Of a DNA stretch of 64,000 nt, positions 2,603-59,254 are shown piece by piece. Origin of the DNA: a virus; IMG/VR virus record IMGVR_UViG_3300005337_000441, positions 1-64,000 of that record; one strand, given 5' to 3'. The translations under genes and the position numbers were made by a program. How positions within the stretch are numbered: position 1 is the stretch's first letter; each line of letters opens with the position of its first letter. A model generated the notes under the pieces. That model was not told the DNA's origin. It saw nothing but the letters and a program-made list of their open reading frames with translations, and made no database searches.

Positions 2603-4537
2603 ATGACTCGACAGCTGTCGGCTCCGACCCCCTCGGTGCGGCGCCTGAACATTGTCGCAGCGGTCGCCAAGGGTGGTACCTCTGCCGACAACTCGGTCGA
2701 CGCGGCAACTCAACTCGGAGCAGTCAATCTCTCAACCATCGGCGTGGCCAACGGGCCTGCCAAGGTGCAAGCCGGTGGTTTGATCGACGTGAACAACCTG
2801 CCCGCTGCTTTCCCCAAGGGTCCCACGCTGGATGGCCCTTCGGATTTCTACATCGGCGCGGTCCACACGCTGACCATCACGAACTACGACGTCGCCTCTG
2901 ACGCCTCCTACACGACCAGCGTGACGGCGGGTACGGTCAGCCGCAGCGGCGCCACCATCACCTTCACGGCACCGGGCACCATCCAGACCGTGACGCTCAC
3001 GGTGGCAGGTCGCGCAATGCAGATCAACGTGAAGAACACCGCCCCGATCACGCCTTCGATCGTGGCACCGGTGAACTATGCGACGAATCAAAGCTCGGTC
3101 GTCTACATCACGGGCAGCGCCTTTGCCCTGCCCACGGGTACGCCGTCTCATCAGTTCAGCGACTGGGAGATTGCGCTGGACATCAATTTCACGAACGTCG
3201 TGGCTCAGAGCTTCAACGACACGGTGAACAAGACCAGCTGGACGGCTCCGACCCTGTCGGCGGCAACCCAGTACTACGTGCGCACGCGCTACAAGGACAC
3301 GGTCCAGGGCTACAGCCAGTGGTCCAACCCTTCGACCTTCACCACGAAGGCCAGCTTCACCATCAGCACCGAAGAAGCCAAGCTGGTGTCTACGGACATC
3401 GCTTCCGGCGACAACTTCGGTCAATCCGTGGCTGTGAGCGGTGACGGCACCCGTGTCGTCGTGGGCGCTCATGCCAAGAACAGCTCCACCGGTGCGGCCT
3501 ATGTGTTCCTGCGCAACGCCAACGGCACGTGGACCCAAGAGCAAAAGATCGTCCCCAACGATCCGACCAGCGGTTCGGCCTTCGGTTACTCCGTCATGAT
3601 CTCCATCGATGCCACGCGCATCGTGGTGGCGGCTCCTTCCAAGACCGTCACGGTCAGCAGCCAAGGTTGCGTCTACGTCTTCTCTCGTTCGGGCACGACC
3701 TGGACCCAAGAGCAACGTATCGTGGCCAGTGATCCGGCCACGGGTGACGACTTCGGGATCTCGGCCTCCTTCAGCACGGACATGACCCGCATGGCGGTGG
3801 GTGCTGACCTGAAGACCGGTTCGGTGTCCTCGCAAGGTGCGGTGTACGTGTTCACGCGGTCTGGCACCGTCTGGTCACAAGAGCAGAAGCTGTTGATCGC
3901 TGACCCGCTGGCCAGTGACAAGTTCGGCTTCTCGGTCTCGCTGGACGCCACGGGCACGCGCTTCGTTGCCGGTGCTCAAGGCAAAGCCACCAGTGCCGGT
4001 GCAGCCTACATCTTCCTGCGTTCGGGCGTGACCTGGGCACAAGAAGCCAAGCTGCTGCCTGCGGACCCGACCAACAACTCGTTCTTCGGCTACGCCGTGG
4101 CGTCGAACTCCGACTGCACTCGCTGCGTCATCGGCGCGTACGCCAAGACGGTCACTCAGAGCACTCAGGGTGCGGCCTACATCTTCAACCGCAACACCAC
4201 GACCAACGTGTGGACCCAGGAGCAGCGTCTCGTGGCCACCGATGCGGCTGCGGCGGACTCCTTCGGCTACTCGGTCGCCATCCAGGCCGACGGTGTGCGC
4301 GCCTTCATCGGTGCACGCACCAAGAGTGGCGTGAGTGGTGTCAACCAGGGTGCAGCGTACATGTTCCTGCGCAATACTGGCACGAACGTCTGGGCTCAGG
4401 AGAACAAGCTCTCGGCCAGCGACAACGCCGCAGGTGGTCGCTACGGTCACAGCGGCTGGTTCGCTGACAGCGGCAATCGTGTCGTGATCGGTGCGAACAA
4501 CGCCGACAGCCAAGGTGCGGCCTACGTCTACGGTTAA
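2603..4537 (+). CDS. Tail-fibre paralogue with seven propeller-type repeats
   Basis: This 644-residue protein has the same plan as its upstream neighbour: an N-terminal fibre module (VAKGGTSADN, then a LGAVN segment), an Ig-like domain (TITFTAPGT near residue 125), a fibronectin-like domain (FSDWEIALD, then TQYYVRTRYK), and seven propeller-type repeats from about residue 255 to the end. Repeat turns include STDIASGDNFG, ASDPATGDDFG and ATDAAAADSFG. The N-terminal module is more divergent than in the other copies (GGTSAD in place of GGTGAT), while repeat turns and the fibronectin core stay close. A GAAAGGA ribosome-binding site precedes the ATG. Predicted to be a virion fibre recognising the host surface; the ligand is unknown. 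Confidence 0.8.
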   Translation: MTRQLSAPTPSVRRLNIVAAVAKGGTSADNSVDAATQLGAVNLSTIGVANGPAKVQAGGLIDVNNLPAAFPKGPTLDGPSDFYIGAVHTLTITNYDVASDASYTTSVTAGTVSRSGATITFTAPGTIQTVTLTVAGRAMQINVKNTAPITPSIVAPVNYATNQSSVVYITGSAFALPTGTPSHQFSDWEIALDINFTNVVAQSFNDTVNKTSWTAPTLSAATQYYVRTRYKDTVQGYSQWSNPSTFTTKASFTISTEEAKLVSTDIASGDNFGQSVAVSGDGTRVVVGAHAKNSSTGAAYVFLRNANGTWTQEQKIVPNDPTSGSAFGYSVMISIDATRIVVAAPSKTVTVSSQGCVYVFSRSGTTWTQEQRIVASDPATGDDFGISASFSTDMTRMAVGADLKTGSVSSQGAVYVFTRSGTVWSQEQKLLIADPLASDKFGFSVSLDATGTRFVAGAQGKATSAGAAYIFLRSGVTWAQEAKLLPADPTNNSFFGYAVASNSDCTRCVIGAYAKTVTQSTQGAAYIFNRNTTTNVWTQEQRLVATDAAAADSFGYSVAIQADGVRAFIGARTKSGVSGVNQGAAYMFLRNTGTNVWAQENKLSASDNAAGGRYGHSGWFADSGNRVVIGANNADSQGAAYVYG

Positions 4538-25352: not shown

Positions 25353-27497
25353 CTACTGGATCGTGCCAGCGGAAACTTCAGGTTGTCTCACGAAGGCTTC
25401 GAGCACGTGACCCGCGCCCAACGTGACGTATTGCAGCACACCTGCGGTGGCCGAGTCATGCACCATCGACGCCCAGAAAGCGGGCGAGGTGAGTTTGCCT
25501 GCGTTGGCAATGGCCTTGGCAATGCGCAGCTTTGCTTTGGGCATGGCATACAGCTGTGTGTACAGGTCTTGACCTGCAAGCACTGCCAGGTAGTCCGCCA
25601 GGATGTTGTCTTCGTCCAGACCCGCGTCACCACCGAAGAGCTCGCCCGTGGAGATGGGCATGTGCACAATGGAGGACAGATCCACCACCGTGAACTGCAC
25701 ATCGATCGCCATGGCGTTGCCCTTGACGTCAAACGCCAGGTGACTGACACCACGGTTCACGGACAAAGACTCGACCATGCCGAGCTTGATCTGCTGACGA
25801 CCCTTGTCGAAGACCTGACACAGGAAAGGCGGTCCGTAAGACTGCTTGCCTGTGGAGCGCGGCAAAGCCGCTGCAAGGATCATCGCCAGCGGGATGTAGA
25901 TGTTCATCATCTGCGAAATCACGTTCCCGTACGGGCTCATGAGATGCATCTTGTACGTAGAGCGTGAAAGACTCGACGACGAACTTTGCCAGTGTTTGGG
26001 GATGTCGAGGTAGCCTGAGCCACCCAGACCTGCCAAGAGGTTGCTAAAGCCCATGGTGACGCCATCCAGCGCGCCCAGGGCCACGTCCTTCACGGCACCC
26101 GCCACGGCGCCCACCGTCGCACCGGCCACGCCACCGATGATGTTGCCATCAGCGAAAGCGAAACGCGCCTGACGCATCTCGGAGGATTGGCTGTTGAGCT
26201 TCTGGGAGATCTGCGATTCCATCACCGCGTTGGTGAACGAATCGTTTTGAGCTCCGGTGTGTTCCACCTTGAAGACTGCGAACTGTGAACCGTCACGGAA
26301 CTCTGCGTCGAAGAAGTTCCAGAACGACGTGAACGTCGTGGGATCCTTCTTGGCCTTGGGGTCCGGGTTGTTCGGATCCACGCGGGGATCTTGTTCCATG
26401 CGAGGATTGTTGTCCTTGGACTCGTAGTACTCACCGAACGTGAGCACCCGGTTGATATAGGACATGAACGTCGCAGGCTTGCTCGGATTCAGGTACGTGG
26501 TGTGCGTGCCGCTGCCGGTCAACTGCTTCTGCAGGTAACCGGTGTAGTCGGTTGCCGAGCCTTGGTTCAGGCGGTCGTAGTCTTCGAGAAACGCTTGGTT
26601 GGCCAGACGCTGTGCGCGATTGGCCAGGGCGTAGATGTCGAAGTAGTTCGCTGCCGATTTCTTGTCCAGGATGGAAGGCGGGAACACGTCCGGCATCATC
26701 TTGGAGAGCTCGTTGTAGTACTCTTGGTCCAGCGTGTACGGCTGACCCAGGCGCTGCCCCTTCGTGGCGTCGTCCGCCATGATCTTGGGGAAGATGCCCT
26801 TGTTGATCGCGATGTTGTTCACGAGCTGGTTGACTGCGCCCCAGTACGTGTGCATCGTGGGCTTGAGCGTGTAGAACTTGCTCGTCGGGCGCGAGAAGAT
26901 CCAGTTGAGCAACTGTGCGCCTGCCACGAGTGCAGCCACCGCAGGGAAGGCCACCACCACCGTGATGGTGCCCGCGAGCTTGCCCAAGTTGTAGAACGCA
27001 CTCGTTGCGCGACCTGTGCGCACCAGCGCCGTGTCGTCAGCGGAGAACGCTTTGGACAGGAATGTGGAGAGAGAGTTGAACTGCTCCACACCGAAGCGCA
27101 TGTAGATGGTCTGTGCCGGATCATCGATGGCTTCGCTGTAGTAGCGACCCATGCCGAAGTTGCCCGACGTCGCGGTGGGCGACACGTCGTTGCGACCCGA
27201 GACACGACCCTTGGCACGGATGTCGCTGTAGCGGGTGAACTGCGGTTTGGGGTTGATACCGATATTGCAACCGAGCCTGGCGTCGGTGAACTTCGCATCT
27301 GCCGAAGACCAGTAGCGGTTGGCGACGTCGTTCGGATCGTCCAGACTGTTGTCAGAAATCAGGAACGCATTCTTGGCCCAGCTGTTGTCCAGGTGAAAGG
27401 CCAAGGGATCGGTCTTGAGTTGGTCCTCGAACGCAGTGATCGGGACACCCTCTTGACTCGTGATGATGGGCCTGATGCCACCAGCGGTGGATGTCAT
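25353..27497 (-). CDS. Large structural protein with hydrophobic segments
   Basis: 714 residues, not recognised as a named family. It has a strongly hydrophobic stretch at about residues 177-202 (ITVVVAFPAVAALVAGAQLL) and a glycine/alanine-rich one at about 455-480 (IIGGVAGATVGAVAGAVKD), similar to the tape measure's. The C-terminal region (FLCQVFDKGRQQIKLGMVES, then AFDVKGNAMAIDVQFTVVDL) looks like a beta-rich tail or baseplate domain. The gene lies directly downstream of the tape measure on the same strand, separated by a hairpin, so it probably acts with it in the tail tube lumen, tail tip or baseplate hub. The start follows GGAGG. Confidence 0.6.
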   Translation of the reverse strand: MTSTAGGIRPIITSQEGVPITAFEDQLKTDPLAFHLDNSWAKNAFLISDNSLDDPNDVANRYWSSADAKFTDARLGCNIGINPKPQFTRYSDIRAKGRVSGRNDVSPTATSGNFGMGRYYSEAIDDPAQTIYMRFGVEQFNSLSTFLSKAFSADDTALVRTGRATSAFYNLGKLAGTITVVVAFPAVAALVAGAQLLNWIFSRPTSKFYTLKPTMHTYWGAVNQLVNNIAINKGIFPKIMADDATKGQRLGQPYTLDQEYYNELSKMMPDVFPPSILDKKSAANYFDIYALANRAQRLANQAFLEDYDRLNQGSATDYTGYLQKQLTGSGTHTTYLNPSKPATFMSYINRVLTFGEYYESKDNNPRMEQDPRVDPNNPDPKAKKDPTTFTSFWNFFDAEFRDGSQFAVFKVEHTGAQNDSFTNAVMESQISQKLNSQSSEMRQARFAFADGNIIGGVAGATVGAVAGAVKDVALGALDGVTMGFSNLLAGLGGSGYLDIPKHWQSSSSSLSRSTYKMHLMSPYGNVISQMMNIYIPLAMILAAALPRSTGKQSYGPPFLCQVFDKGRQQIKLGMVESLSVNRGVSHLAFDVKGNAMAIDVQFTVVDLSSIVHMPISTGELFGGDAGLDEDNILADYLAVLAGQDLYTQLYAMPKAKLRIAKAIANAGKLTSPAFWASMVHDSATAGVLQYVTLGAGHVLEAFVRQPEVSAGTIQ

Positions 27498-27580: not shown

Positions 27581-30500
27581 TTACGCAGATTTTCTTGTCA
27601 GATCCACTGCGGCTTCGATCCTCTGAAACGATGCCGGTTGTTGCACAGGCTTGACAGCGTTGGGCTGTTGAGCTTGGGCGGGTTGTGCCGCGGCCTTCGT
27701 GACGGCTTGCGTCATGGCTTCGCTGTTCTGCAGCATCTTCTGCAAGACCGAGAGGGTCTGCACATGGATGTCCAGAGACTTGGTCAGGATGTCGTTGGTG
27801 GTGGCCGTGGTCTGTGACGAAGAACCCATCGCTTGCGGACGGCTGACAGTGTCCGGCTGCACGGCAGTTGTCGGAACAACCGGTGCAACACGACCCTGTG
27901 CCATTGGCATGGGCTGACGCACGATCGGAGCAGGCTCCGTCGAAGCGCGTGGCGTCACGGGAGGCTGGCCGCCCGTAGCGTCTCTCACAATGACTGGCGG
28001 CTCATCGCTCATCCGCCTTGCAGCGGGTTTGCTTTGAAGGTCACCACCACCTTGGTAGTTGATGCCGAACTCTTGCGCCTTCTTGGACAGACGTTGGTCG
28101 ATCTTGCGATAGACCTCACCGACCGTCAGAGGACGAGTGCCCTCGTAGAAGTAGCTCCTGTTGGCCGCTGCCGCGTTGGGCAGCACATTGGCTGCGATCT
28201 CGTTGGGATCAGCAGACAAGAACTTGCGTGCCCCGGTCGGACCGAGGAAGTGCGCCAAGTACACGTCCGTCATGTTCGGGTTGGGTTTGACCGAACTGAT
28301 GAAACGCTTGTTGGTTTTGTAGTAGTCCGACGCTGCGATGGTCGAGTCTTCCACGTCAGTGCGACGCGGGTTCGGGCCCATGCGAGGACCTGCGACTTGA
28401 ACCTGCTGATTCCAGCTGGCGTTCGTGAAGCCGAAGAGGCCTTCCGAAGTACCAACCGTAGAGCGAGCGTTGGGGTTCAGGCTCGACTCGACAGCAGCGT
28501 ACGTGAGGAGATCGTTCGGAGGCACGCCTTCTTGACGCGCCACCTTGGTCACCTTGTCCTTCACGTCGCCGTAAGGTCCCGACTGTTTGTCGTCGCCAGC
28601 GGTTGCCACGTCCTTGGGACGCGCTTCCATGTCCGGCATCTTAGCCGCAGCGTTGTACTTGTCGCTTTGTTGGTAGCTTGCCTGCACGCTGCTCGCCTGC
28701 TTGACACCCACGGAGGGTGCGTTTGCAGCCGTTTGCATCGGAGGCTTGATGGCCGCAACGGCAGCCACCGGCTTCGGAGCGGTCACGGGTTCGTTGGCGC
28801 CAGAGACATTCGGACCTTGCGCGAGCTCGGCCACCTTGTCCTTGTCTGACTTGCCATCGTCCTTCACGGTTTGACCCGTGAGTCCCATTTGAGCCACAGC
28901 GAACATCGTGTCGCGCTTGCCCAGCGGCGTGCCGCGAATGGAACCCACGCCACCGCCACCCTTGTTGATCGATGCACCCACCGCCTGAGAGGCAAAGTTG
29001 GGATCGTTCTTCGCGAGTTTGAGGTTACCCTGGATACCAGCAGCTTCCGTGTGCCACGGCTCGCCACCCACCGGGCGGGTGAAGCCGTACTTGCGCATCA
29101 GTCCAAGATCATCCATCGCGTCCAAGTCACCGCTGTTCATGTCGACCGCGAGGCCGTACTCGTGCAGCGAAGTGCCAGGCCTTGCAGCCTTCTTGGGATT
29201 TTGACGGAAGAGCTTTTCTTGTTCAGCGGTGTCACGTACTGCGGCATTCATCGTCACCGACTTGCCCGTGCGTTCACCGTACTCCTGGATCATGGCCAGG
29301 AGTTGTTGCTTCATGGCCGGGTTCATGCCGTCAAGCTTGACCCCGTCACCCATCTTCAGGTACTGCATGGCTTGAGAGCCGTCGCGCACGGGGCCATCGG
29401 CCACCTTAAGCGGACCCCCGAGCTTGCTAGGACCTTCATTGATGGTCTTGTCCACCGGACCCTTCTCACCTGTGGCAGGTTTCTCACGCAGCGGACCATC
29501 TTCGGCCGACTGTGATTCATCCCTGGGAGCAGCCTTGTTGCGGTCCTCGTTGGACTTGACAACTTGAGCCACGACCTTCTTGCCTTCATCGGCTTTCGGG
29601 TCCACAGCAGGTTTCTTGGTCGGATCGATCGCAGCAGTGACAGCGGTGACGCCAGCGACAGCCTTGGCAGCTTTGTCCGCCTTGTCCTTGTCCGCCTTTG
29701 CCTTCTTCTCTGCTTTGTCTTTGTCCGAAGCGGCTTGCTTGTCAGCGGCTTCCTTGGCCGTTGCCGTGCAGACCTTGATCAGCTCTTGAACCTGCGGTCT
29801 GGTGTAAGCCAGTTGCGGCAGATCCTTGAACGGAGAGACCGTCACGTTGTACGGACCGCTCTCGTAGCCGATCAAGCCATAGAACTTGACCTTCTCCGCG
29901 GCCGTCAATTCATCGTGAGCATTCTTCAGGCTCACCTTCTTGTTCACAGCGTAGAGCGCCGTGCAGTTGGTGAGGAAGAACGGTTTGAAGCGAGCGTCGA
30001 ACCATTGGCCCAGTTTAGAGGCCGATTCACCGTCTGCTTTGTCGATAGAGAAGATGTTCAGGAGTTCTTCCGGATCGATCTTCTTGTCCATCAAGACAGC
30101 TTTGTCACCCACGAACCCGACACGGCCGTCCAGGAGGTATTCCTCCAGTGCGAGCATGAGGTGGTTGTGCGATTTGTCACCGACCGTCAGACCGTATTGG
30201 TACATCCGGATCTGTTCGGTATCGTTGACGTTGTCTCGCGTGGAGTATTTGTAGAGCTTGTAAGCACCGTAGCCGACAGCAGCCACTGCTGCGGCGCCAA
30301 GTACCACAGGAGAAGCCAGGACTGCACCGATCGCTGAGATACCGGCACCGACAGCGCCGAGGATCGCAGAACCGACACCACCCGTCATGAGGCTGCCGAC
30401 GAGAGCGACGTTGCGAATCATGCCGACCTTGGAGACCAAGTTGGCCACCATGCCCACACGACCAGCACCTGCAACAGCGCCAGCGATCGGGCGTCCGATG

Positions 30501-33500
30501 GCGCCCAGCGCAGAGCCGACGGCTCCTGCTGCACGACCACCCAGTCCCAACAGACCCTTGGCTCCGTTGAAGACCTTGCCGACCAGACCACCAGCCATGC
30601 TGGCCACCGACCCTACACCGCTGATAACGCTACCCGCAGCGCCAAACAGCCTGCCCGCACCACTGGTGAGGAAACTGAAGACGCCAGACACCTTGTCCAT
30701 GATGGACTTGAAGATATCCTTTTCGGACACGTATTTGGCTTCGGCCGCTTGAAGACCCGGCGCATTGGCGCGACGTTGTGCGTCGGCTTCTGCTTGAGCT
30801 TCCAAGCGGTCTTCCCACGAACCATCCCGACGACCACTGCCGTCACGATCGTTGTAAGCAGGGTTGTCGACCTTGCGGCGACGACGCGTGGTCGTGGTCT
30901 TCTTCGGTGCGGCCTTTTGTGCCAGAGCCTTGTCGGTTTTCTTGCGACCCCGCTTTTTGGTTTCCGGCTCAGCTTCTTCAGCCTTGCCACCAAAGAACGA
31001 CATCGCGCCACCGAGCAACTTGCCCTTCAGACCACCCGCATTGGCCTTGATGGAACCCAGGACCTTGGAACCACGCTCCTTGAGTCCCTTCGTTCCGCCC
31101 AGCGATGCAAGTTTGTCTTTGCCTTGTTGGACCAGTTTATCAAAGCCCGTTTTCGGAGGCTCCACCGGAGCAGCCTTGGCCTTGCGGCGACGGCGCTTAC
31201 CCTTGACGGGCTCAGGTGCGACTTCTTCTTCCTTGGCAAAGCGATTCATGATGCGGTCCTTGAGGGACTTGGCACCACCGAGAATCCCGCTGAACGTATC
31301 GCCAAGCGTCTTGTCAGAGGTGTACTTGGCTTCCGGAGTTTCAAGTTCCGTGCCTTCAGAGCCACCTTCTGTGGTCGTGGTGATTTCTTCGTCGCCACCG
31401 CCTGCTGCACGCTGCGCAGCGAGCTTGCGGCCAACCAAAGTTTTCTTGCCGTAAGGGTTCTTCCTCTTTTCGAGGGTTTCCAGGAGCTTGTCTTTGAGAG
31501 ACTTGCTCTGGTCCTTTTCAGCAGCGCGTTGCGCCGCCAACTTACGACCCACCAGTGTTTTCTTGCCAGAGGGGTTGCGCTTCTTGTCCAGAAGCTCCAT
31601 GGCCTTGTCCTTGAGGGACATGCCTTTGGCGGTGATTTTGTCTTTGAGCTCGCCAGCTTTGCTCTTGAGATCAGTGAACGTGGCGCCACTGGCTCCAGAC
31701 TTCTTGTACTTCTCTTCGTGACGAGGTGGATTTTCACCACGCATCAGGTCACGCATCTCCACGAGCACATCGTAGATGCGCTTGTTGCCGAGGAGACCGA
31801 AGTTCTGGAAGAAGTCCTTGATGCCAGGCAGCCATTTGTCCATGAGCTTGCCACCGAACTCTTGACCCTTTTGCAGCAACATGTCCCAGGTCGAGCGCAG
31901 TGCCTTGATGGTCTTGCCACCGAGGTCCTTCGCCTTTTCTGCGATGCGTTCCAAGCCGGTCTTGACTCGGTTGCCGTACTGGTCGTACACGCCTTCAACA
32001 AGATCTTGAGCGTCAAGGATGACTTCACCTGCCTTGTTGACGATGGCGCCCTTGGCTTTCACCAAGTCGTCCATGGTCTTCAGCACCTGACCCGAGGCTG
32101 AGTCGTAGTACTCGCCCTCACGCAGCAACGAAGCCTTGATCACCGGAGACTTGCGTCCCTTGATGTAGACGTCGCGCACAGCGTACAGCGAGTTCTTCAC
32201 GGTGGCTTTCGCATCCGTGAGGAGATCCTTGGCCTTTTGGATATGGATCGGCAGTTTGTTGTCGATGTAGTCCTTACCGTAGGCGTAGCCTTGCTGAGCC
32301 AGCTCCCCGCCCTTGTCACGCGCTTGGCGCAGCTTGTCAAGGAAGGGATCACGGTAACGGTCATAGAGTTCTTGGGCTTTGTCCATGCCCGGCTTGACGA
32401 TGCGGTCACGACCGTATTCATAGCCGCGAATGGCACCTGCCTTGGCATCTTGAGCACCGCGTTTGACGAGTTCACCAGAGGCCGTCCAGATGTTACCCAG
32501 GATGTCCTGATAGGTGTCCTCACCCTTGTACTTGGAGCCAGTGCGACGTGCACCAGCTCTACCACCGGCCCCACCACCAAAACCACCCTTGCCCGATTCA
32601 ACGAGCTTACGGATGGCCTTGACGTCAGTGGCAATGGCCTTGACAGGGTTGGCAGCTTCTTCCTTCTTCGTGAAGAGCTTCTTGACCTTGTCGACAATAT
32701 CGTCTTGCTGGTCAGCGAGCTCCTGGATGGCAGCCATGTTGTTGCCATTCATCGAGGTCAGGTCGATCTTTTTGCCGCCCGGGGCTGCACCATCACCCAT
32801 GTTCTTGCGAACGTCTTGGGCCATGGGACCACGGTGCTGTTCATCGTCACCTTCGCCTGGCTTGTAGAACCAGTCAAAGATGCCCGTCTTGCGGATGGCG
32901 TTGAGTGCGCGCTTCGGATGCAGCGGGTGGATGTCTTCCTTGGTCTCCTCATCGGACTTGATGAGTTGCTTCGGCAGACGCTTGCCCGTGGCATTGCGGC
33001 GCTTCGGACGAGCCTTCTTGATGGCCGTCTTCTTGTTGCGATCCGAAGTCACAAGACCTTCGTCACGCACGAGCTTCAGGTAAGCTTCCTCATTGATGAT
33101 GAAGTCACCCTTGGCATCGCGGTCAACGAGACCTTGCTCTTCGAGGAGCTCACCGTAGCCGGCGTGGATGAGTTGTTCGATGACACCGCGAGCATCTGGC
33201 GTAGCGCTACGCACATTCATGATGCTCTTGGTCAGACCCAGCTGCCCGCGCAGCGGATCCTCAGCGTTTGTCACCTTGTGGTCAAGCAGCGTGTCCACGA
33301 GTTTCTTCGTGTCCGGATCGAGCATCTTGTACGCGTTAGTCGTCTTGATGTTCTCCGGCGTGAACGCCATGTTGGGGATCGACGACACCTTGGCGATGAA
33401 ATCGGTGATCTTCGCCTTGGTGCCCTCGTCTGTCTTCTTGTCGCCGATGAAGTCCTCTGCCGCATCACGGGCAAAGAAACCATAGCTCGACGTCTTGATC

Positions 33501-35059
33501 TTGTCGGACAGCGACTTCTTCACCATCTCGCCGATTGCTTTGCGATTGACGAACTTGCCGCTGCTCTGATCGTAGTAAACCATCTCGGCTTGCTCATCAC
33601 CCGTCCGCAACACGGTGATTTCACGCAAGATGCGTGCGAGGTAGCCAGGGATGATGTCCGTGATGCTGCGCTGCGTCTTGTCATTGAAGACGCCCACATT
33701 GGACGGAGATGTGATGCCGTAGGGGCTATTGACCCGGTTATCCGGTTGAGAGTCGGTGAAGTAGTTGGCGAATCGATCGATCCCTCGGGCCAACGAGCCC
33801 TTGGGTCCTTCTGCCTTCAAGTACTCTTGCGCCTTGTCGGATTTGCGAAGCTCTCCGATGGCACCGGGTAGGTTAGTGACGGCGTTGGCCCCTTTGGTGA
33901 GGGCGTTACGCAGCGCGGGCACTTTGTCCAAGCGCGGTCGTGCGAAACGACCAACCTTGTCACCCACCTTGTCACCAAGGAAACCTCCGAACGCATTGCC
34001 AGCCAGCTGGGCTCCGGAGAGCTGCTCGCCGCCAATTTCCTTGAGGATGTCGTTCGTTTCCTTGAGCTGCTGGTAACTGTCCACCCCCATGGTAACAGCT
34101 TCCAGACCTTGCTTCACCCCTTTGACATAGTCTTTGATGTCTGCAGTGATGCGCTTCAACCCGCGATCGATCGCGGAGCCTTCACCGAAGAACGAGTTTT
34201 GAATCCTGTCCATGAACTTGGTTCGCGCCAAGTCCTTGAAACGTTCAGAAGCCTTGATCTTCACGAACTCCGGCAACGCGGTGTTCTTGGCGATCGCTTC
34301 GTTTTGTGCTTTGAAGACCTCAAAGTACTGCTTCGACGTCGAAGCAATGTCCGTGAGAGCAAAGTAGCTACGGTATTGTAGCTCCAATGATTTCTTCTGT
34401 ACAGCTTGGGTGATGCGCTCCTGGTAGGAGGACATGCGTCCCACGTTGTTGCTGATCGTGGTCAGGATACCGAGACTTTGATCGAACTCCTTACGGCGGA
34501 TGTTCTCAACAATCTCGTCCTTGGCATTTCGACGTGCCTCAACCTCGGTCTGCGTGGCTTGTTGCTGCTGGAAGATGGAACCCAGGTTCGTTGCGATGCC
34601 TTGGTCTTGCAGCTGTTCTTTGGAGAGAGAAGACGGGCTCGACTCATCCCCGAAGAGGGAAGCGATTCGAGAGGAGATCTTCTTGAGCGTTTTGCGCTCT
34701 TCAGGCACCAGGCGGTCGACCTTCTTGGCCAACCGCGACGCCTGTGGTTTTAGCTCTTTTACCGCGTCATCGTATAGCGATGAGGCTGTGCCTGCGGCTT
34801 TATCGGCCGCATCCACGATGGTCCCGAACTCCTCCGGGAGAGCACTACGGGTCAATCTTGCTAAAAACGATGGGCTCTTGAACTTATCGACCGCTCCTGA
34901 GATGGTGCCCTTGAAGACCTCCGTCGTCGGAGATCGTGACGAGCGTTTCTTCGCATCAGGAGTGAGTTGACTGTCGATTTTCTCGTAGTCAAACTGGTCG
35001 AAATTCAGTTCATCGTCAAGCGAGAAGTCCTCGGTTCGAACTTTCTCATTCTTTGCCAT
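27581..35059 (-). CDS. Tape-measure-like protein with M15 peptidase and transglycosylase domains
   Basis: 2,492 residues. The first 650 are helical, as expected of a tape measure that sets tail length. At about 700-790 there is a segment resembling the S74 endosialidase chaperone: S702-D703 in IKSDEETKED, then FDWFYKPGEGDDEQHRGPMA, QDV, and MAAIQEL. Basic repeats with GKKTLVGRKLAAQRAA twice lie near 1160-1220, and a glycine/alanine-rich hydrophobic region at about 1470-1610. A peptidase M15 site follows at H1966, D1973 (HEYGLAVD) and H2003 (PWHTE), then a lytic transglycosylase-like domain with E2191 (AAVESSLNP). The hydrolases probably open the cell wall during DNA injection. The start follows CGGAGG. 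Confidence 0.85.
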   Translation of the reverse strand: MAKNEKVRTEDFSLDDELNFDQFDYEKIDSQLTPDAKKRSSRSPTTEVFKGTISGAVDKFKSPSFLARLTRSALPEEFGTIVDAADKAAGTASSLYDDAVKELKPQASRLAKKVDRLVPEERKTLKKISSRIASLFGDESSPSSLSKEQLQDQGIATNLGSIFQQQQATQTEVEARRNAKDEIVENIRRKEFDQSLGILTTISNNVGRMSSYQERITQAVQKKSLELQYRSYFALTDIASTSKQYFEVFKAQNEAIAKNTALPEFVKIKASERFKDLARTKFMDRIQNSFFGEGSAIDRGLKRITADIKDYVKGVKQGLEAVTMGVDSYQQLKETNDILKEIGGEQLSGAQLAGNAFGGFLGDKVGDKVGRFARPRLDKVPALRNALTKGANAVTNLPGAIGELRKSDKAQEYLKAEGPKGSLARGIDRFANYFTDSQPDNRVNSPYGITSPSNVGVFNDKTQRSITDIIPGYLARILREITVLRTGDEQAEMVYYDQSSGKFVNRKAIGEMVKKSLSDKIKTSSYGFFARDAAEDFIGDKKTDEGTKAKITDFIAKVSSIPNMAFTPENIKTTNAYKMLDPDTKKLVDTLLDHKVTNAEDPLRGQLGLTKSIMNVRSATPDARGVIEQLIHAGYGELLEEQGLVDRDAKGDFIINEEAYLKLVRDEGLVTSDRNKKTAIKKARPKRRNATGKRLPKQLIKSDEETKEDIHPLHPKRALNAIRKTGIFDWFYKPGEGDDEQHRGPMAQDVRKNMGDGAAPGGKKIDLTSMNGNNMAAIQELADQQDDIVDKVKKLFTKKEEAANPVKAIATDVKAIRKLVESGKGGFGGGAGGRAGARRTGSKYKGEDTYQDILGNIWTASGELVKRGAQDAKAGAIRGYEYGRDRIVKPGMDKAQELYDRYRDPFLDKLRQARDKGGELAQQGYAYGKDYIDNKLPIHIQKAKDLLTDAKATVKNSLYAVRDVYIKGRKSPVIKASLLREGEYYDSASGQVLKTMDDLVKAKGAIVNKAGEVILDAQDLVEGVYDQYGNRVKTGLERIAEKAKDLGGKTIKALRSTWDMLLQKGQEFGGKLMDKWLPGIKDFFQNFGLLGNKRIYDVLVEMRDLMRGENPPRHEEKYKKSGASGATFTDLKSKAGELKDKITAKGMSLKDKAMELLDKKRNPSGKKTLVGRKLAAQRAAEKDQSKSLKDKLLETLEKRKNPYGKKTLVGRKLAAQRAAGGGDEEITTTTEGGSEGTELETPEAKYTSDKTLGDTFSGILGGAKSLKDRIMNRFAKEEEVAPEPVKGKRRRRKAKAAPVEPPKTGFDKLVQQGKDKLASLGGTKGLKERGSKVLGSIKANAGGLKGKLLGGAMSFFGGKAEEAEPETKKRGRKKTDKALAQKAAPKKTTTTRRRRKVDNPAYNDRDGSGRRDGSWEDRLEAQAEADAQRRANAPGLQAAEAKYVSEKDIFKSIMDKVSGVFSFLTSGAGRLFGAAGSVISGVGSVASMAGGLVGKVFNGAKGLLGLGGRAAGAVGSALGAIGRPIAGAVAGAGRVGMVANLVSKVGMIRNVALVGSLMTGGVGSAILGAVGAGISAIGAVLASPVVLGAAAVAAVGYGAYKLYKYSTRDNVNDTEQIRMYQYGLTVGDKSHNHLMLALEEYLLDGRVGFVGDKAVLMDKKIDPEELLNIFSIDKADGESASKLGQWFDARFKPFFLTNCTALYAVNKKVSLKNAHDELTAAEKVKFYGLIGYESGPYNVTVSPFKDLPQLAYTRPQVQELIKVCTATAKEAADKQAASDKDKAEKKAKADKDKADKAAKAVAGVTAVTAAIDPTKKPAVDPKADEGKKVVAQVVKSNEDRNKAAPRDESQSAEDGPLREKPATGEKGPVDKTINEGPSKLGGPLKVADGPVRDGSQAMQYLKMGDGVKLDGMNPAMKQQLLAMIQEYGERTGKSVTMNAAVRDTAEQEKLFRQNPKKAARPGTSLHEYGLAVDMNSGDLDAMDDLGLMRKYGFTRPVGGEPWHTEAAGIQGNLKLAKNDPNFASQAVGASINKGGGGVGSIRGTPLGKRDTMFAVAQMGLTGQTVKDDGKSDKDKVAELAQGPNVSGANEPVTAPKPVAAVAAIKPPMQTAANAPSVGVKQASSVQASYQQSDKYNAAAKMPDMEARPKDVATAGDDKQSGPYGDVKDKVTKVARQEGVPPNDLLTYAAVESSLNPNARSTVGTSEGLFGFTNASWNQQVQVAGPRMGPNPRRTDVEDSTIAASDYYKTNKRFISSVKPNPNMTDVYLAHFLGPTGARKFLSADPNEIAANVLPNAAAANRSYFYEGTRPLTVGEVYRKIDQRLSKKAQEFGINYQGGGDLQSKPAARRMSDEPPVIVRDATGGQPPVTPRASTEPAPIVRQPMPMAQGRVAPVVPTTAVQPDTVSRPQAMGSSSQTTATTNDILTKSLDIHVQTLSVLQKMLQNSEAMTQAVTKAAAQPAQAQQPNAVKPVQQPASFQRIEAAVDLTRKSA

Positions 35060-35112: not shown

Positions 35113-36735
35113 ATGTCTTTAATTAGCCAAACGCCGTTCAATATCGCACTGCTCATCCCGAGCGATGCAGATGTTGCCGGTATGCGCCCCGTGAAAGTGC
35201 TGGACATCAACGATGGTCTGAGCAAAAACTTTCACCCCGATGGTCTGTTCTCGGTGGAAACGTTCGGCAAAGTGGGTGAGGAAAGGCGCAACCGTCTCTT
35301 CTCCTACATCGACATGCACATCAGCGTCTTCCACCCCGTGGTGTATAAGGCGCTGTTGGACTTGAAGAGCCTGTACGGTGACATCATCGCAGGCACGGGT
35401 TATGCGGTGTTCGACCCCGAAACCAACGATTTCGAAAAGTCCGACGTCACTCAAGGGGACACGGGCTTTGCCTTCTTCGTGAAGCACTTCGAGAAGATCC
35501 AGTTCGAGTCGCGCCCCAGCGCCAAGCGGGAGTTCAACATCGCGCTGGTGAACAAGTACCGCAAGAACTGCCTGATGGACAAACTCGTCGTCATGCCGGC
35601 AGGCCTGCGTGACTACACGGTCGACGAAAACTCCAAGCCGAGTGAAGACGAGATCAATGGCCTGTACCGTCGCGTGCTCAATGTGGCTTCGGTCATCGAG
35701 AACGTCAACGCCAAGAGCAACGTCGAGTACCTGGACTCCACCCGCTACGGCCTGCAACAGCGCGTCAACGAGATCTACGAGTACATCGTGAATCTGCTTG
35801 AAGGCAAGAGCAAGCTCATTCAGGGCAAGTGGGCCTCGCGCAAGATCTTCGACTCCACTCGAAACGTGATTTCCCCGCACGTCTCCAAGACGGACGAGTT
35901 CTTCACGGGTCGCACGGTGTCTTCGAATCAGACCATCGTCGGCTTGTACCAGTACCTGCGCTGCATCATGCCGCTGGCGGTCAAGCACGTGCGCGACACG
36001 TACCTCTCCAAAGTGTTCCTGGGTCCGAACTCACCCGCCGTGCTGGTGAACAAGAAGACCTACAAGAAGGAACTGGTCAACCTCGATCCGCGTTACTACG
36101 ACGAGTGGATGACGTACGAGGGTCTGGAAAAGCTCATGGCCCGGTTCGGTCAGGAAGAGCTCCGTGACGACGTCCTGGAGATCGAGAACTACTACGTGGG
36201 TCTGCTGTACAGGCAAGGTGGTCATGTGCGCTTCGTGCAGGACATCTCCGACGTCCCCATCAACGGCTCGCACGATCCTCGCGAACTCCTCACGCCCATC
36301 ACGTTCTGTGAACTGCTGTACCTGTCGGTGTTTGCTGACGCGGCGAGCATCCCTTGCCTGCTGACACGTTATCCGGTCACGGGGTATGGCTCGATCTATC
36401 CGAGCTACGTCTACCTCAAGACCACGGTGCGTGCTGAACAGGTCAAGGTCCTGGGCGACGACTGGGAAACCGTGATCGGCACAGCCTACGAGTTCCCCAT
36501 CAAAGGCGAACAGTACTTCAACGCGATGAGTCCTTCGACCACTCACGTGGCTCGTCTGGGCGCAGACTACGACGGCGACACTTGCTCGCTGATCTGCCTG
36601 CTCACCGAAGACGCCAAGGTGGAAGTCAAGAAGAAGCTCAACAGCCGCGACTACTATGTGGGTGTCAATGGCAAGATGGCGTTCAGCGCCGGCAACGACA
36701 TCATCGATCTGGTGTTGGCCAACGTCACGAGCTGA
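35113..36735 (+). CDS. RNA polymerase beta' subunit, N-terminal half
   Basis: 540 residues from the ATG at 35113, which follows AGGATCAGG; an earlier in-frame start would overlap the tape-measure promoter region. The catalytic magnesium motif GADYDGD is at residues 483-489 (D485, D487, D489), matching NADFDGD of bacterial RpoC. Upstream, RNAP landmarks appear in order: DGLFSVETFG (like DGLFCARIFGP), LIQGKWASRKIFDSTRNVIS (like LLGKRVDYSGRSVI), and TRYPVTGYGSIYPSYVY. There is no zinc-binding cysteine cluster. The protein ends shortly after the motif, so the bridge helix and trigger loop must be encoded elsewhere; I do not see them here. With the beta pieces it would form a phage RNA polymerase of the phiKZ kind. 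Confidence 0.85.
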   Translation: MSLISQTPFNIALLIPSDADVAGMRPVKVLDINDGLSKNFHPDGLFSVETFGKVGEERRNRLFSYIDMHISVFHPVVYKALLDLKSLYGDIIAGTGYAVFDPETNDFEKSDVTQGDTGFAFFVKHFEKIQFESRPSAKREFNIALVNKYRKNCLMDKLVVMPAGLRDYTVDENSKPSEDEINGLYRRVLNVASVIENVNAKSNVEYLDSTRYGLQQRVNEIYEYIVNLLEGKSKLIQGKWASRKIFDSTRNVISPHVSKTDEFFTGRTVSSNQTIVGLYQYLRCIMPLAVKHVRDTYLSKVFLGPNSPAVLVNKKTYKKELVNLDPRYYDEWMTYEGLEKLMARFGQEELRDDVLEIENYYVGLLYRQGGHVRFVQDISDVPINGSHDPRELLTPITFCELLYLSVFADAASIPCLLTRYPVTGYGSIYPSYVYLKTTVRAEQVKVLGDDWETVIGTAYEFPIKGEQYFNAMSPSTTHVARLGADYDGDTCSLICLLTEDAKVEVKKKLNSRDYYVGVNGKMAFSAGNDIIDLVLANVTS

Positions 36736-36737
36736 TC

Positions 36738-37136
36738 ATGACCAAACTCACGAGCGACTACCGCGAAGGCAAAGGCAGCACGGCCACCTCGGAAGGACAC
36801 GAGTACCAACTCGACATCCTCTTCGAGTTGACGTGGGACCGCAAGCCTACCATCAAGAATGTCTCGGATCTGGACTGGATCCTGGAATACACCGAGATCG
36901 ACGAAGAGCGTGTCAAGAACGCTGACCTCGGAGTTCCCATCCTGATCTACTGGTCCGATGCACTCCAACACTGGGTGACGCTGGACGGGGCACATCGCCT
37001 CACAAAAGCCAAGCGTGAACACAAGCATGGAATCGGTTGTCGTATCGTTGACGAGGACATGCTCGCCAAGGCTCGAATCGATCACCACAAAAAACATGTC
37101 GCCGTGGAGAGCATGCCTCTTTACGCCAAGTGGTAA
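36738..37136 (+). CDS. ParB/Srx-like small protein
   Basis: 132 residues, starting 2 bases after the beta' stop, so translation is probably coupled. A core resembling the ParB/sulfiredoxin nuclease fold is visible: a hydrophobic strand (GVPILIYWSD), then HWVTLDGAHRLTKAKREHKH and GCRIVDEDML. The D-G-x-H-R motif is the family's nucleotide-binding site. Such domains act as CTPase switches, nucleases or methyltransferase partners. Its location between beta' and beta suggests a role linked to transcription or its timing, but this is inference. The protein lacks a recognisable DNA-binding helix-turn-helix. Confidence 0.6.
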   Translation: MTKLTSDYREGKGSTATSEGHEYQLDILFELTWDRKPTIKNVSDLDWILEYTEIDEERVKNADLGVPILIYWSDALQHWVTLDGAHRLTKAKREHKHGIGCRIVDEDMLAKARIDHHKKHVAVESMPLYAKW

Positions 37137-56644: not shown

Positions 56645-59254
56645 ATGGAACAGTACTTGGTCTCCCATGCGTTGAGGAACGTGTGGGGTAATCCTTCGCA
56701 AGACCGCCAGCTGGTGTTCGCTGCCAAAAGGATTACCCCTTTGAACGGGGCCCTCAATCGCTTCACCCTCATGAACAGAAAGGTAGCGCTGCCCATCCAG
56801 GGTAAGCGCTACCATGTTTTCCAAATCGGTCAACTCAACCCGAACCTGATCGGCTTTGCTAGCACGAAGCCGGACTGGGTCAACGAGAGCTGGCTGAACC
56901 TGGCGCAATCGATCGAGTCCAACAAGATGATGATCAGCCTGTACACGGCTGATGGCACTTGCATCCCTCGGTTCCAAACCTATTTGCTCTTCAGCAACGA
57001 GCGAGACCTCGTGGTCGCGGTCGAGGACAACTCCCGCGTCAAGATCGACTACAAGACCGATCAGGTCTACTTCCGGGTCTACAGCAACGCTTACTACGAG
57101 AGCCAAGCTGCCGACCAGCTGCCCGACGTCATGAAGTGCAAGGGCAAGATTGCCCTGAACGTCAACGACATTCTGGCCATGCAGCTGGAGGTCACCGCAC
57201 TCAGGCAGCTGACCGGTCACGTCTTCACGTACTGCAACGGCTTCTTGGTCGATGAGATCTCGCCCGTGACGGTGCAAATCGGTGACGCCATGGAGTACGT
57301 CTACGACTACTCCGTGAAGAAGATGGTCACCTTCGACGTGAACTCGCTCAACATCTTCTCCAGTACGCTGGACCTGAAGACCAAGTTCTTGCTCCACTAC
57401 GCCGGTACCGATGACAATACCATCGACTACCAGGACGATCTGGACATCTACATCCTGAACCCGAATGGCGCGCGCTACAAGGGTTACTACTACCATCGCA
57501 ACACGCCGGAGTCTCACCGCATGGTGACGCACCGTGACTATGCGATCGTGGTGGACTACTACACCTACATCGCTCAGAAGCTCGCTGAAGACACCTCGAC
57601 CACCCCGGTGGACATCATGGGCTTCAAGCTTCAGGTCGCCATCCGCAAGTCGGGCACCAACAATCGCCCGCTCATCTACGACAACGCACGCATCTTCGAG
57701 ATGTACAAGTTGGACGATGAGAAGATCCTCCAGGCCATGATGGGTGTCAACTCGTCGCTGGAAATCTGGAAGGCTCAAAGCCTGGAAGCCAATGCGTACA
57801 CCGAGCTCATGCGCGCTCCGTACGCCGAGAACGTCACGCTCTCGTTGGTGCAGTCGGCCTATGGCTACAACAGCATGTCCAAGATCGTCGGGGACACACC
57901 GCAGAAGACCACGCTCATCTCGGGCCGTCAGACTGCGACATTGCCCGAAGCGTTGATCGGCAACTGCACGGTCTACGAGTACGACGTGAACGGTCAGCTG
58001 CTCGGCTGGCACTACCACTCGGGCGATGTCACCTATCAGGCCGTGGACAACAACACGCGTCTGATCGAGGCAATCTCCGGTCGTGGCACGGACGCTCCGG
58101 ATGTGCGCTTCGGGACCGACAACATCCCGGTGCCTGCGGTGGACAACTACCGCGTGTACCGCTGCTGGTTTGACAACGGCGTGCCGAACAACCAGTGGGC
58201 CGATGTGACGGGTTCTTCCGAGTACCACATCGAAAACGGCATCCTGATCTGGGACAACGAGCAGATTGAGCAGTTCGTCATGGTGCGCACGGACGCCAAG
58301 TTCCTGGCCTATGACCTCGACCTGACGTGCGTCAACGGCAACCTCTTCTTCACTTTCGCAGAGAAGGAAGACCGAGGCCTGGGCGACGGCGTGCAGGACT
58401 ACACCCTGCCGGTGCCTCTGGGTGAGATCGACGTGTTCTTGAATGGACACTCCCTCATCAAAGGTCTGGACTACAACATCGTGTTCCCGACGATCCACGT
58501 TGTGAACAAGAAGTACCTGAACCAGCCTGGTACTGACGCGCTGCAACATCTGCATGTGCGCATGACCGGCTTCTGTTCTTCGGACTTGAAGTTCGAACAG
58601 ATCGATGACTACGGTTTCGTTCAATACGGGTTCCTCTCGGAGAACAACCGCTACGACATCCGTGACGACAAGGTGCTTCGCATCACGATGGACGGCAAGA
58701 CCCTGCATCGCGACGCTCTGCTCTTCTCCGAGGAGCATGACGGTGTGAGTGTGGCGGACCCGACCAACGGTCTGCCGTACCAAGTCAAGGACATCGTCGT
58801 CCCGCTCAAGCAGCTGGTCAACGAGAACACCTACAGCCTGCGTGCCAAGTCGATCCAGATTGACGAGGACGTCTCGGACTACATGACGATCAAGGACCCG
58901 GAAGCCGATCGTGGGGATCTGGACATCATCCCGGAGAAGTACCCGGTGGTGTCACCCTTCGTGAGCCGTGTCCTGAACGCCTTGCTGACCGACTACATCA
59001 CGAAAACCCAAATCGAGAATGCTGTCACGGACAATGACGTCATCGCGCTGGTGAGTGAGTTCGAACCTCTGCTTCAGTTTGACCCTGTCAACGAGGATCT
59101 GGAATATGACTACCGTTTCGTTGATGTGCATCCGCACCGCAACACGACGGTGATCAACTTGGAACTCTACCAGTTCCGCTTCCTGAATCGTGTAGTGGGT
59201 CTGTACTGTCACGGGCTCGTGAATCTCTCTCCCTTCTTCACCGTCAATCCGTAG
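56645..59254 (+). CDS. Large virion structural protein, unknown role
   Basis: 869 residues, not recognised. It has many beta strands with aromatic/polar alternation (FQTYLLFSNERDLVVAVEDN, then GKIALNVNDILAMQLEVTAL, then DIVVPLKQLVNENTYSLR), no membrane segment and no enzyme motif. Its size, composition and place between the sheath and another large beta-rich protein indicate a baseplate or tail-tip component. It begins 14 bases after the preceding stop and ends 8 bases before the next start, so all three are in one operon. Confidence 0.65.
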   Translation: MEQYLVSHALRNVWGNPSQDRQLVFAAKRITPLNGALNRFTLMNRKVALPIQGKRYHVFQIGQLNPNLIGFASTKPDWVNESWLNLAQSIESNKMMISLYTADGTCIPRFQTYLLFSNERDLVVAVEDNSRVKIDYKTDQVYFRVYSNAYYESQAADQLPDVMKCKGKIALNVNDILAMQLEVTALRQLTGHVFTYCNGFLVDEISPVTVQIGDAMEYVYDYSVKKMVTFDVNSLNIFSSTLDLKTKFLLHYAGTDDNTIDYQDDLDIYILNPNGARYKGYYYHRNTPESHRMVTHRDYAIVVDYYTYIAQKLAEDTSTTPVDIMGFKLQVAIRKSGTNNRPLIYDNARIFEMYKLDDEKILQAMMGVNSSLEIWKAQSLEANAYTELMRAPYAENVTLSLVQSAYGYNSMSKIVGDTPQKTTLISGRQTATLPEALIGNCTVYEYDVNGQLLGWHYHSGDVTYQAVDNNTRLIEAISGRGTDAPDVRFGTDNIPVPAVDNYRVYRCWFDNGVPNNQWADVTGSSEYHIENGILIWDNEQIEQFVMVRTDAKFLAYDLDLTCVNGNLFFTFAEKEDRGLGDGVQDYTLPVPLGEIDVFLNGHSLIKGLDYNIVFPTIHVVNKKYLNQPGTDALQHLHVRMTGFCSSDLKFEQIDDYGFVQYGFLSENNRYDIRDDKVLRITMDGKTLHRDALLFSEEHDGVSVADPTNGLPYQVKDIVVPLKQLVNENTYSLRAKSIQIDEDVSDYMTIKDPEADRGDLDIIPEKYPVVSPFVSRVLNALLTDYITKTQIENAVTDNDVIALVSEFEPLLQFDPVNEDLEYDYRFVDVHPHRNTTVINLELYQFRFLNRVVGLYCHGLVNLSPFFTVNP

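Follow-up and report, generated by a model that had tools for sequence, protein, structure and literature searches.

The tape measure protein of this phage carries an S74 (intramolecular chaperone autocleavage) domain in the middle of its chain, and both its sequence and its modelled fold mark the domain as genuine. The domain has the predicted fold of its family and an intact Ser-Lys dyad, and it occupies a fixed place in the tape measures of one clade of phiKZ-like jumbo phages, in which it has a single origin. We consider it likely, from sequence, model and analogy taken together, that it was inserted once in the ancestor of that clade, that it trimerises the protein and that the chains then cut themselves at K701|S702 as a maturation step coupled to assembly. 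Phages with this type of gp181 thus probably split their tape measure into two pieces by self-cleavage as they assemble. The window analysed here is the whole stretch of 64,000 nucleotides from the start of a 215,768-base virus record (IMGVR_UViG_3300005337_000441), and its relevant features are collected in Table 1.

The tape measure open reading frame matches phrog_3201 (E 7.9e-196), and in tblastn searches it matches phiKZ gp181 as well as proteins of PhiPA3, Noxifer, FLC6/8/9 and many others. It is flanked on one side by virion RNA polymerase (vRNAP) genes on the opposite strand and on the other by a gp182-type gene, and the order vRNAP, gp181, gp182 is common to the source phage, phiKZ and others. 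Homology along the chain and this gene order place the protein in the phiKZ gp181 family. Judged by sequence, it is a homologue of the phiKZ gp181 and SPN3US gp239 tape measure; both count as its orthologues by sequence, size and gene order but are without S74. The name “tape measure” for gp181 rests on work on SPN3US, whose gp239 (259.1 kDa) was named a tail tape measure protein in proteomics studies (PMC5694885, PMC10052503). The gp181 homologue of SaP7, an SPN3US-type phage, has a computed mass of 259.2 kDa, and gp181 homologues are often labelled “tail fiber” in public records.

A profile over 50 homologues showed that residues 1–660 are common to gp181 proteins with and without S74. AlphaFold modelled this N-terminal part as nearly all helix; the overall mean pLDDT was only 62.9, and the best-modelled stretch, residues 460–668, was mostly helix at a pLDDT of about 75–90. 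Two candidate peptidoglycan hydrolase regions lie further along the chain, each scoring just below its Pfam cut-off. The first is a VanY-like region (24.8 against 25 bits). The second, an SLT region, was found in 11 of 16 gp181 homologues scanned and is supported by a match of the tape measure to the phrog_4067 transglycosylase (E 5.3e-30).

Table 1. Features of the tape measure gene, its S74 domain and its neighbours (positions in the window), and the loci that carry related proteins.
Feature	Position	Strand	Basis
gp181-type tape measure protein, 2,492 aa, 269 kDa	27581..35059	-	phrog_3201, tblastn, gene order
N-terminal part, residues 1–660, predicted helical	33080..35059	-	profile over 50 homologues; AlphaFold
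Upstream SDxxxK, S672–K677, probable tandem copy of cleavage segment	33029..33046	-	LVTSDRNKKTAIKKARPKR vs LIKSDEETKEDIHPLHPKR
Very basic 30-residue segment between motifs, residues 672–701, 13 Lys/Arg	32957..33046	-	sequence
S74 / intramolecular chaperone autocleavage domain, residues 702–803	32651..32956	-	PF13884, AF2, Foldseek, 10 distinct gp181 proteins
S702 codon, predicted nucleophile; predicted cut K701|S702	32954..32956	-	invariance; PMC8326128
K707 codon, predicted general base (Ser +5)	32939..32941	-	invariance; PMC8326128
Long C-terminal helix of S74 domain, residues 767–803	32651..32761	-	AF2 helix 113–149 of 176-residue model
VanY-like D-Ala-D-Ala carboxypeptidase region, residues 1912–1981	29117..29326	-	PF02557 E 2.1e-5
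SLT lytic transglycosylase region, residues 2172–2250	28310..28546	-	PF01464 E 6.7e-4; phrog_4067
gp182-type protein, downstream of gp181	25353..27497	-	phrog_3181 E 7.5e-166; gene order
Virion RNA polymerase beta-type subunit, used for phage tree	35113..36735	+	phrog_2986 E 1.9e-182
gp181-S74 relatives	L022/L082, L042/L071/L113, L066, L068, L074, L075, L079, L090, L109		

The initial annotation had pointed to an S74-like domain at about residues 700–790, and the profile search and structure prediction that it called for both bear this out. PF13884 (Peptidase_S74) aligns positions 1–52 of its 58 with residues 702–753 at 37.6 bits (E 2.8e-9), against a curated cut-off of 22 bits. This is the single S74 match in the whole record, and the motifs singled out by the annotation lie within the proposed region, with SD at 702–703, GPMAQDV from 744 and MAAIQEL from 775. 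The gp181 proteins of relatives also exceed the cut-off, with scores of 28.9–41.6 bits. A 176-residue monomer model, built by AlphaFold from a 43-sequence alignment, is confident (pLDDT about 97–98 across most of residues 715–785) and runs in the order helix, two strands, helix, long helix. This last helix is the counterpart of the MyRF helix that forms a trimeric coiled coil. The model has the alpha-beta fold of S74/ICA domains with the terminal long helix, and the beta3–beta4 arm is shrunk to a loop.

The top three Foldseek matches are all chains of the MyRF ICA (best E 9.4e-5, probability 1.00), followed more weakly by the intramolecular chaperones of the GA-1 neck appendage and endoNF; the structures matched in this search include 7dc3, 3gud and 3gw6. 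TM-scores are moderate (0.46 on the query), as expected when a domain is small and a large share of its model consists of the long helix and a flexible linker. A profile of the 43 sequences searched against the PDB likewise ranks the MyRF ICA (4.6e-6) above tail fibre 8jov (1.8e-5) and the GA-1 domain (2.4e-4), and the MyRF ICA is the best match among solved structures by structure and by sequence alike. With the domain as a single sequence, phmmer found no relative in the PDB, and an NCBIfam search gave noise only. In the GA-1 neck-appendage structure 3gud, the chain starts exactly at the serine of SDERHK.

S702 and K707 are invariant in the ten gp181-S74 proteins and in all 43 sequences of the alignment, and the lysine stands five residues after the serine. 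Characterised dyads are also spaced by five (S587/K592 in MyRF and S911/K916 in endoNF), and the scissile bond of MyRF is P586–S587, i.e., before the serine (PMC8326128). Because the spacing is the same, we predict by precedent that the cut falls at K701|S702, which would yield residues 1–701 (78 kDa) and residues 702–2492 (1,791 residues, 191 kDa; computed masses). The initial annotation had placed the cut at S702–D703. That bond is one off, as characterised members cut before the serine (PMC8326128), whereas the accompanying split into about 701 and 1,791 residues appears likely in view of the profile, the fold and the invariant dyad.

Scans of viral contigs, for which the neighbouring vRNAP (with four closer sequences) and the S74 domain served as queries, yielded nine further distinct gp181 proteins with S74 at the same junction. 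One of them (L042/L071/L113) is a single protein on two contigs, and all gp181-S74 members are metagenomic contigs. No matches came from a contig scan that used the entire tape measure as its one query, and tblastn with the S74 domain revealed no phiKZ-like isolate carrying S74. The domain scan relied on the pattern GPMAQ[DE]V together with an F-W strand, and the invariance of GPMAQ is therefore no evidence. SDxxxK was not selected for and is present in all ten proteins, the S74 regions of which share a mean pairwise identity of 38% (range 26–55%).

A profile of the ten proteins scores at least 126 bits for its members versus at most 2.6 for other gp181 homologues. Pfam S74 was found in one of the 16 gp181 homologues first checked, namely the source phage's own, and the domain is missing in phiKZ, SPN3US-type and other gp181 homologues outside the clade. 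The ten S74-bearing phages form one clade in the vRNAP tree (SH-aLRT 98), on which S74 presence needs one change, a value as low being reached in 0 of 500 label shuffles. As all ten belong to one vRNAP clade, one gain explains the pattern, and the trees make a single gain in the ancestor of one phiKZ-like jumbo phage clade the best explanation. The gp181 N-terminal tree requires two changes, with L079 pairing with L045 on long branches, and otherwise agrees; L045 lies far off in the vRNAP tree.

An internal position is unusual for S74, as the initial annotation had remarked. The 57 remaining viral loci recovered by the domain scan all have S74 at the extreme C-terminus with at most 28 residues after it, whereas the domain is followed by about 1,690 residues in the source phage and by 1,375–1,867 in the relatives. 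The S74 domains (PF13884) of endoNF, the GA-1 neck appendage gp12 and tail fibres share their fold family and dyad with that of gp181, but in tail fibres the domain is C-terminal, after the fibre or spike, and is shed. Fibre and tailspike proteins also have a beta-helical or fibrous trimer just upstream, where our model of gp181 has mostly helix. The MYRF/MrfA ICA resembles gp181 in its internal position, in its Ser +5 Lys dyad and in the large C-terminal piece kept after the cut. In MYRF the internal ICA divides the protein into two parts that form independent oligomers, and it remains attached to the C-terminal part (PMC3742443); this analogy supports a gp181 S74 that would likewise remain at the head of the C-terminal piece instead of being shed as a tip. 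MYRF differs in being a membrane transcription factor of eukaryotes, and its domain follows a beta-helical stalk; in gp181, which is a phage tape measure, a helical region precedes the domain.

The 2,492 residues contain just two SDxxxK motifs, one at 672 and one at 702, and the extra motif 30 residues upstream is found in the source phage only among the ten proteins. When LVTSDRNKKTAIKKARPKR was aligned to LIKSDEETKEDIHPLHPKR, the score was 35, attained by 13 of 5,000 shuffles, and the S672/K677 segment is probably a decayed tandem copy of the cleavage segment. The residues between the two motifs are extremely basic (KKARPKRR...GKRLPKQLIK). It is conceivable, though we think it rather unlikely, that the working cut is at T671|S672, or that both sites are cut and a basic 30-residue peptide is released, a reading compatible with self-cleavage. 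Besides its tandem-copy look, S672–K677 occupies the upstream context in which relatives carry their sole domain-proximal motif (TSDxxxKxxI), and in L075 the motif is followed, at this same position, by an insert of 50 residues. Against this, S672 lies 72 residues from GPMAQ, compared with 42 for S702 and 42–52 in eight of the nine relatives (91 in L075), so that S702 is the better candidate by its distance from the remainder of the domain. S702 is also where Pfam and the fold model have the domain begin, and the residues around 672–700 are poorly modelled.

Domains of the S74/ICA type fold as trimers, and their dyad is active only in the trimer (PMC8326128). In T5 and lambda, the tape measure (pb2 and gpH, respectively) undergoes proteolytic processing as the tail is assembled; pb2 is trimeric once the tail is mature, and its cut frees an enzymatic domain (PMC10038345). 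From these precedents and the internal split of MYRF, we infer trimerisation, cleavage and a role in assembly-coupled maturation for gp181. S74 would have been inserted where the conserved, helical N-terminal part meets the gp181 body. Three gp181 chains would associate and their S74 domains trimerise, which would place S702 and K707 in position for the chains to cut themselves at K701|S702. The products would be an N-terminal piece of 701 residues (78 kDa) and a 191 kDa remainder, headed by the S74 trimer and containing both candidate hydrolases. S74 could thereby check that the trimer has formed, and the cut could free the N-terminal part from the enzyme-bearing body. Such a trimerisation-coupled assembly check appears better founded than the setting of tail length that had been suggested for the domain, for which the analysis offers no support. 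The likeness to lambda gpH and T5 pb2 lies in a tape measure being cut in tail assembly; their cutting is not attributed to S74, whereas in gp181 the predicted protease is part of the chain. A search of the open-access literature returned no report of S74 or autocleavage in a tape measure.

Three features weigh against self-cutting: the model shows helix upstream of the domain and lacks a triple beta-helix stalk there, the long beta3–beta4 arm of endoNF is missing from the AlphaFold model, and most gp181 proteins do without S74. The domain might instead fold and trimerise the tape measure without cutting it. Trimerisation alone would suit a tape measure, given the T5 pb2 trimer (PMC10038345), and phiKZ-like relatives without S74 need no cut at this site. 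Folding alone might in principle explain why the serine and lysine are kept, but both are invariant in ten of ten diverged members, and some lineages should have lost them if the domain were only a clamp; we therefore regard trimerisation without cleavage as improbable. A chance resemblance or an assembly chimera is refuted by the profile, fold and family evidence, with nine other distinct proteins on other contigs sharing the architecture, and we give it practically no credence. An S74 relic without a dyad was also considered and rejected, the dyad being invariant.

The nearest S74 domains among 50,697 phage records (tblastn) are those of Achromobacter phage CF418P1 (E 9e-11), Ochrobactrum phage POI1126 (2e-7) and Sinorhizobium phage PBC5 (4e-6). 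They stand at the C-terminus of virion proteins of about 400 residues, assigned to phrog_8003 (“head and packaging, virion structural protein”). The phages concerned are about 58 kb in size, and we call them podovirus-type from a reading of their gene sets. The S74-protein gene of POI1126 has a phrog_511 “internal virion protein” gene a few genes upstream of it and a giant DarB-like gene on its downstream side. The phrog_8003 S74 aligns with that of gp181 along its whole length, and metagenomic phrog_8003-like members have GPMAQDV, APGG and MNG in common with it, but in these proteins the related region is at the extreme C-terminus of a different protein, with at most 36 residues after the S74 match. 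Horizontal transfer of the S74 module into gp181 would be the simplest reading of these similarities. Such phrog_8003 proteins with an S74 end, from phages of about 58 kb, lie at L003:5200-6387, L004:5155-6363 and L005:5188-6390, where the upstream part is Ala/Gln-rich and not fibre-like. Podovirus virion proteins with a matching domain suggest that S74 may serve non-fibre virion proteins too.

The known sites of S74 are fibre ends and MYRF; here it lies in mid tape measure, fixed across a clade. On balance, we lean slightly towards a clade in which the tape measure matures through a built-in autoproteolysis set off by trimerisation and the tail is built around two unlinked pieces, the N-terminal one having its own fate at assembly or ejection; in the source phage the duplicated segment may also release the basic 30-residue peptide. 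If true, this would link trimer assembly of the tape measure to a self-inflicted cut, and one serine would offer a genetically simple handle on the purpose of tape-measure processing.

Some observations concern other genes. In the vRNAP gene of one relative (L022:11448-12114), two back-to-back group I introns (RF00028, E 4e-20 and 2e-19) sit close to the codons for the catalytic DxDGD motif. The vRNAP frame is broken at about the same profile position in several other clade members and in Vibrio phage XC31, and the source phage's copy is unbroken. A small open reading frame between the two vRNAP genes of the window (36684-37136, +) has a ParB-like LDGAHRL motif by eye and no Pfam match. Two adjoining proteins of similar size (514-2469 and 2603-4537, both +) carry seven FG-GAP_2 repeats each (E 8.5e-79 and 2.8e-77) and are possibly surface or receptor-binding proteins. 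A large protein encoded at 56645-59254 (+) matches DUF7193 along its whole length (E 6e-246).
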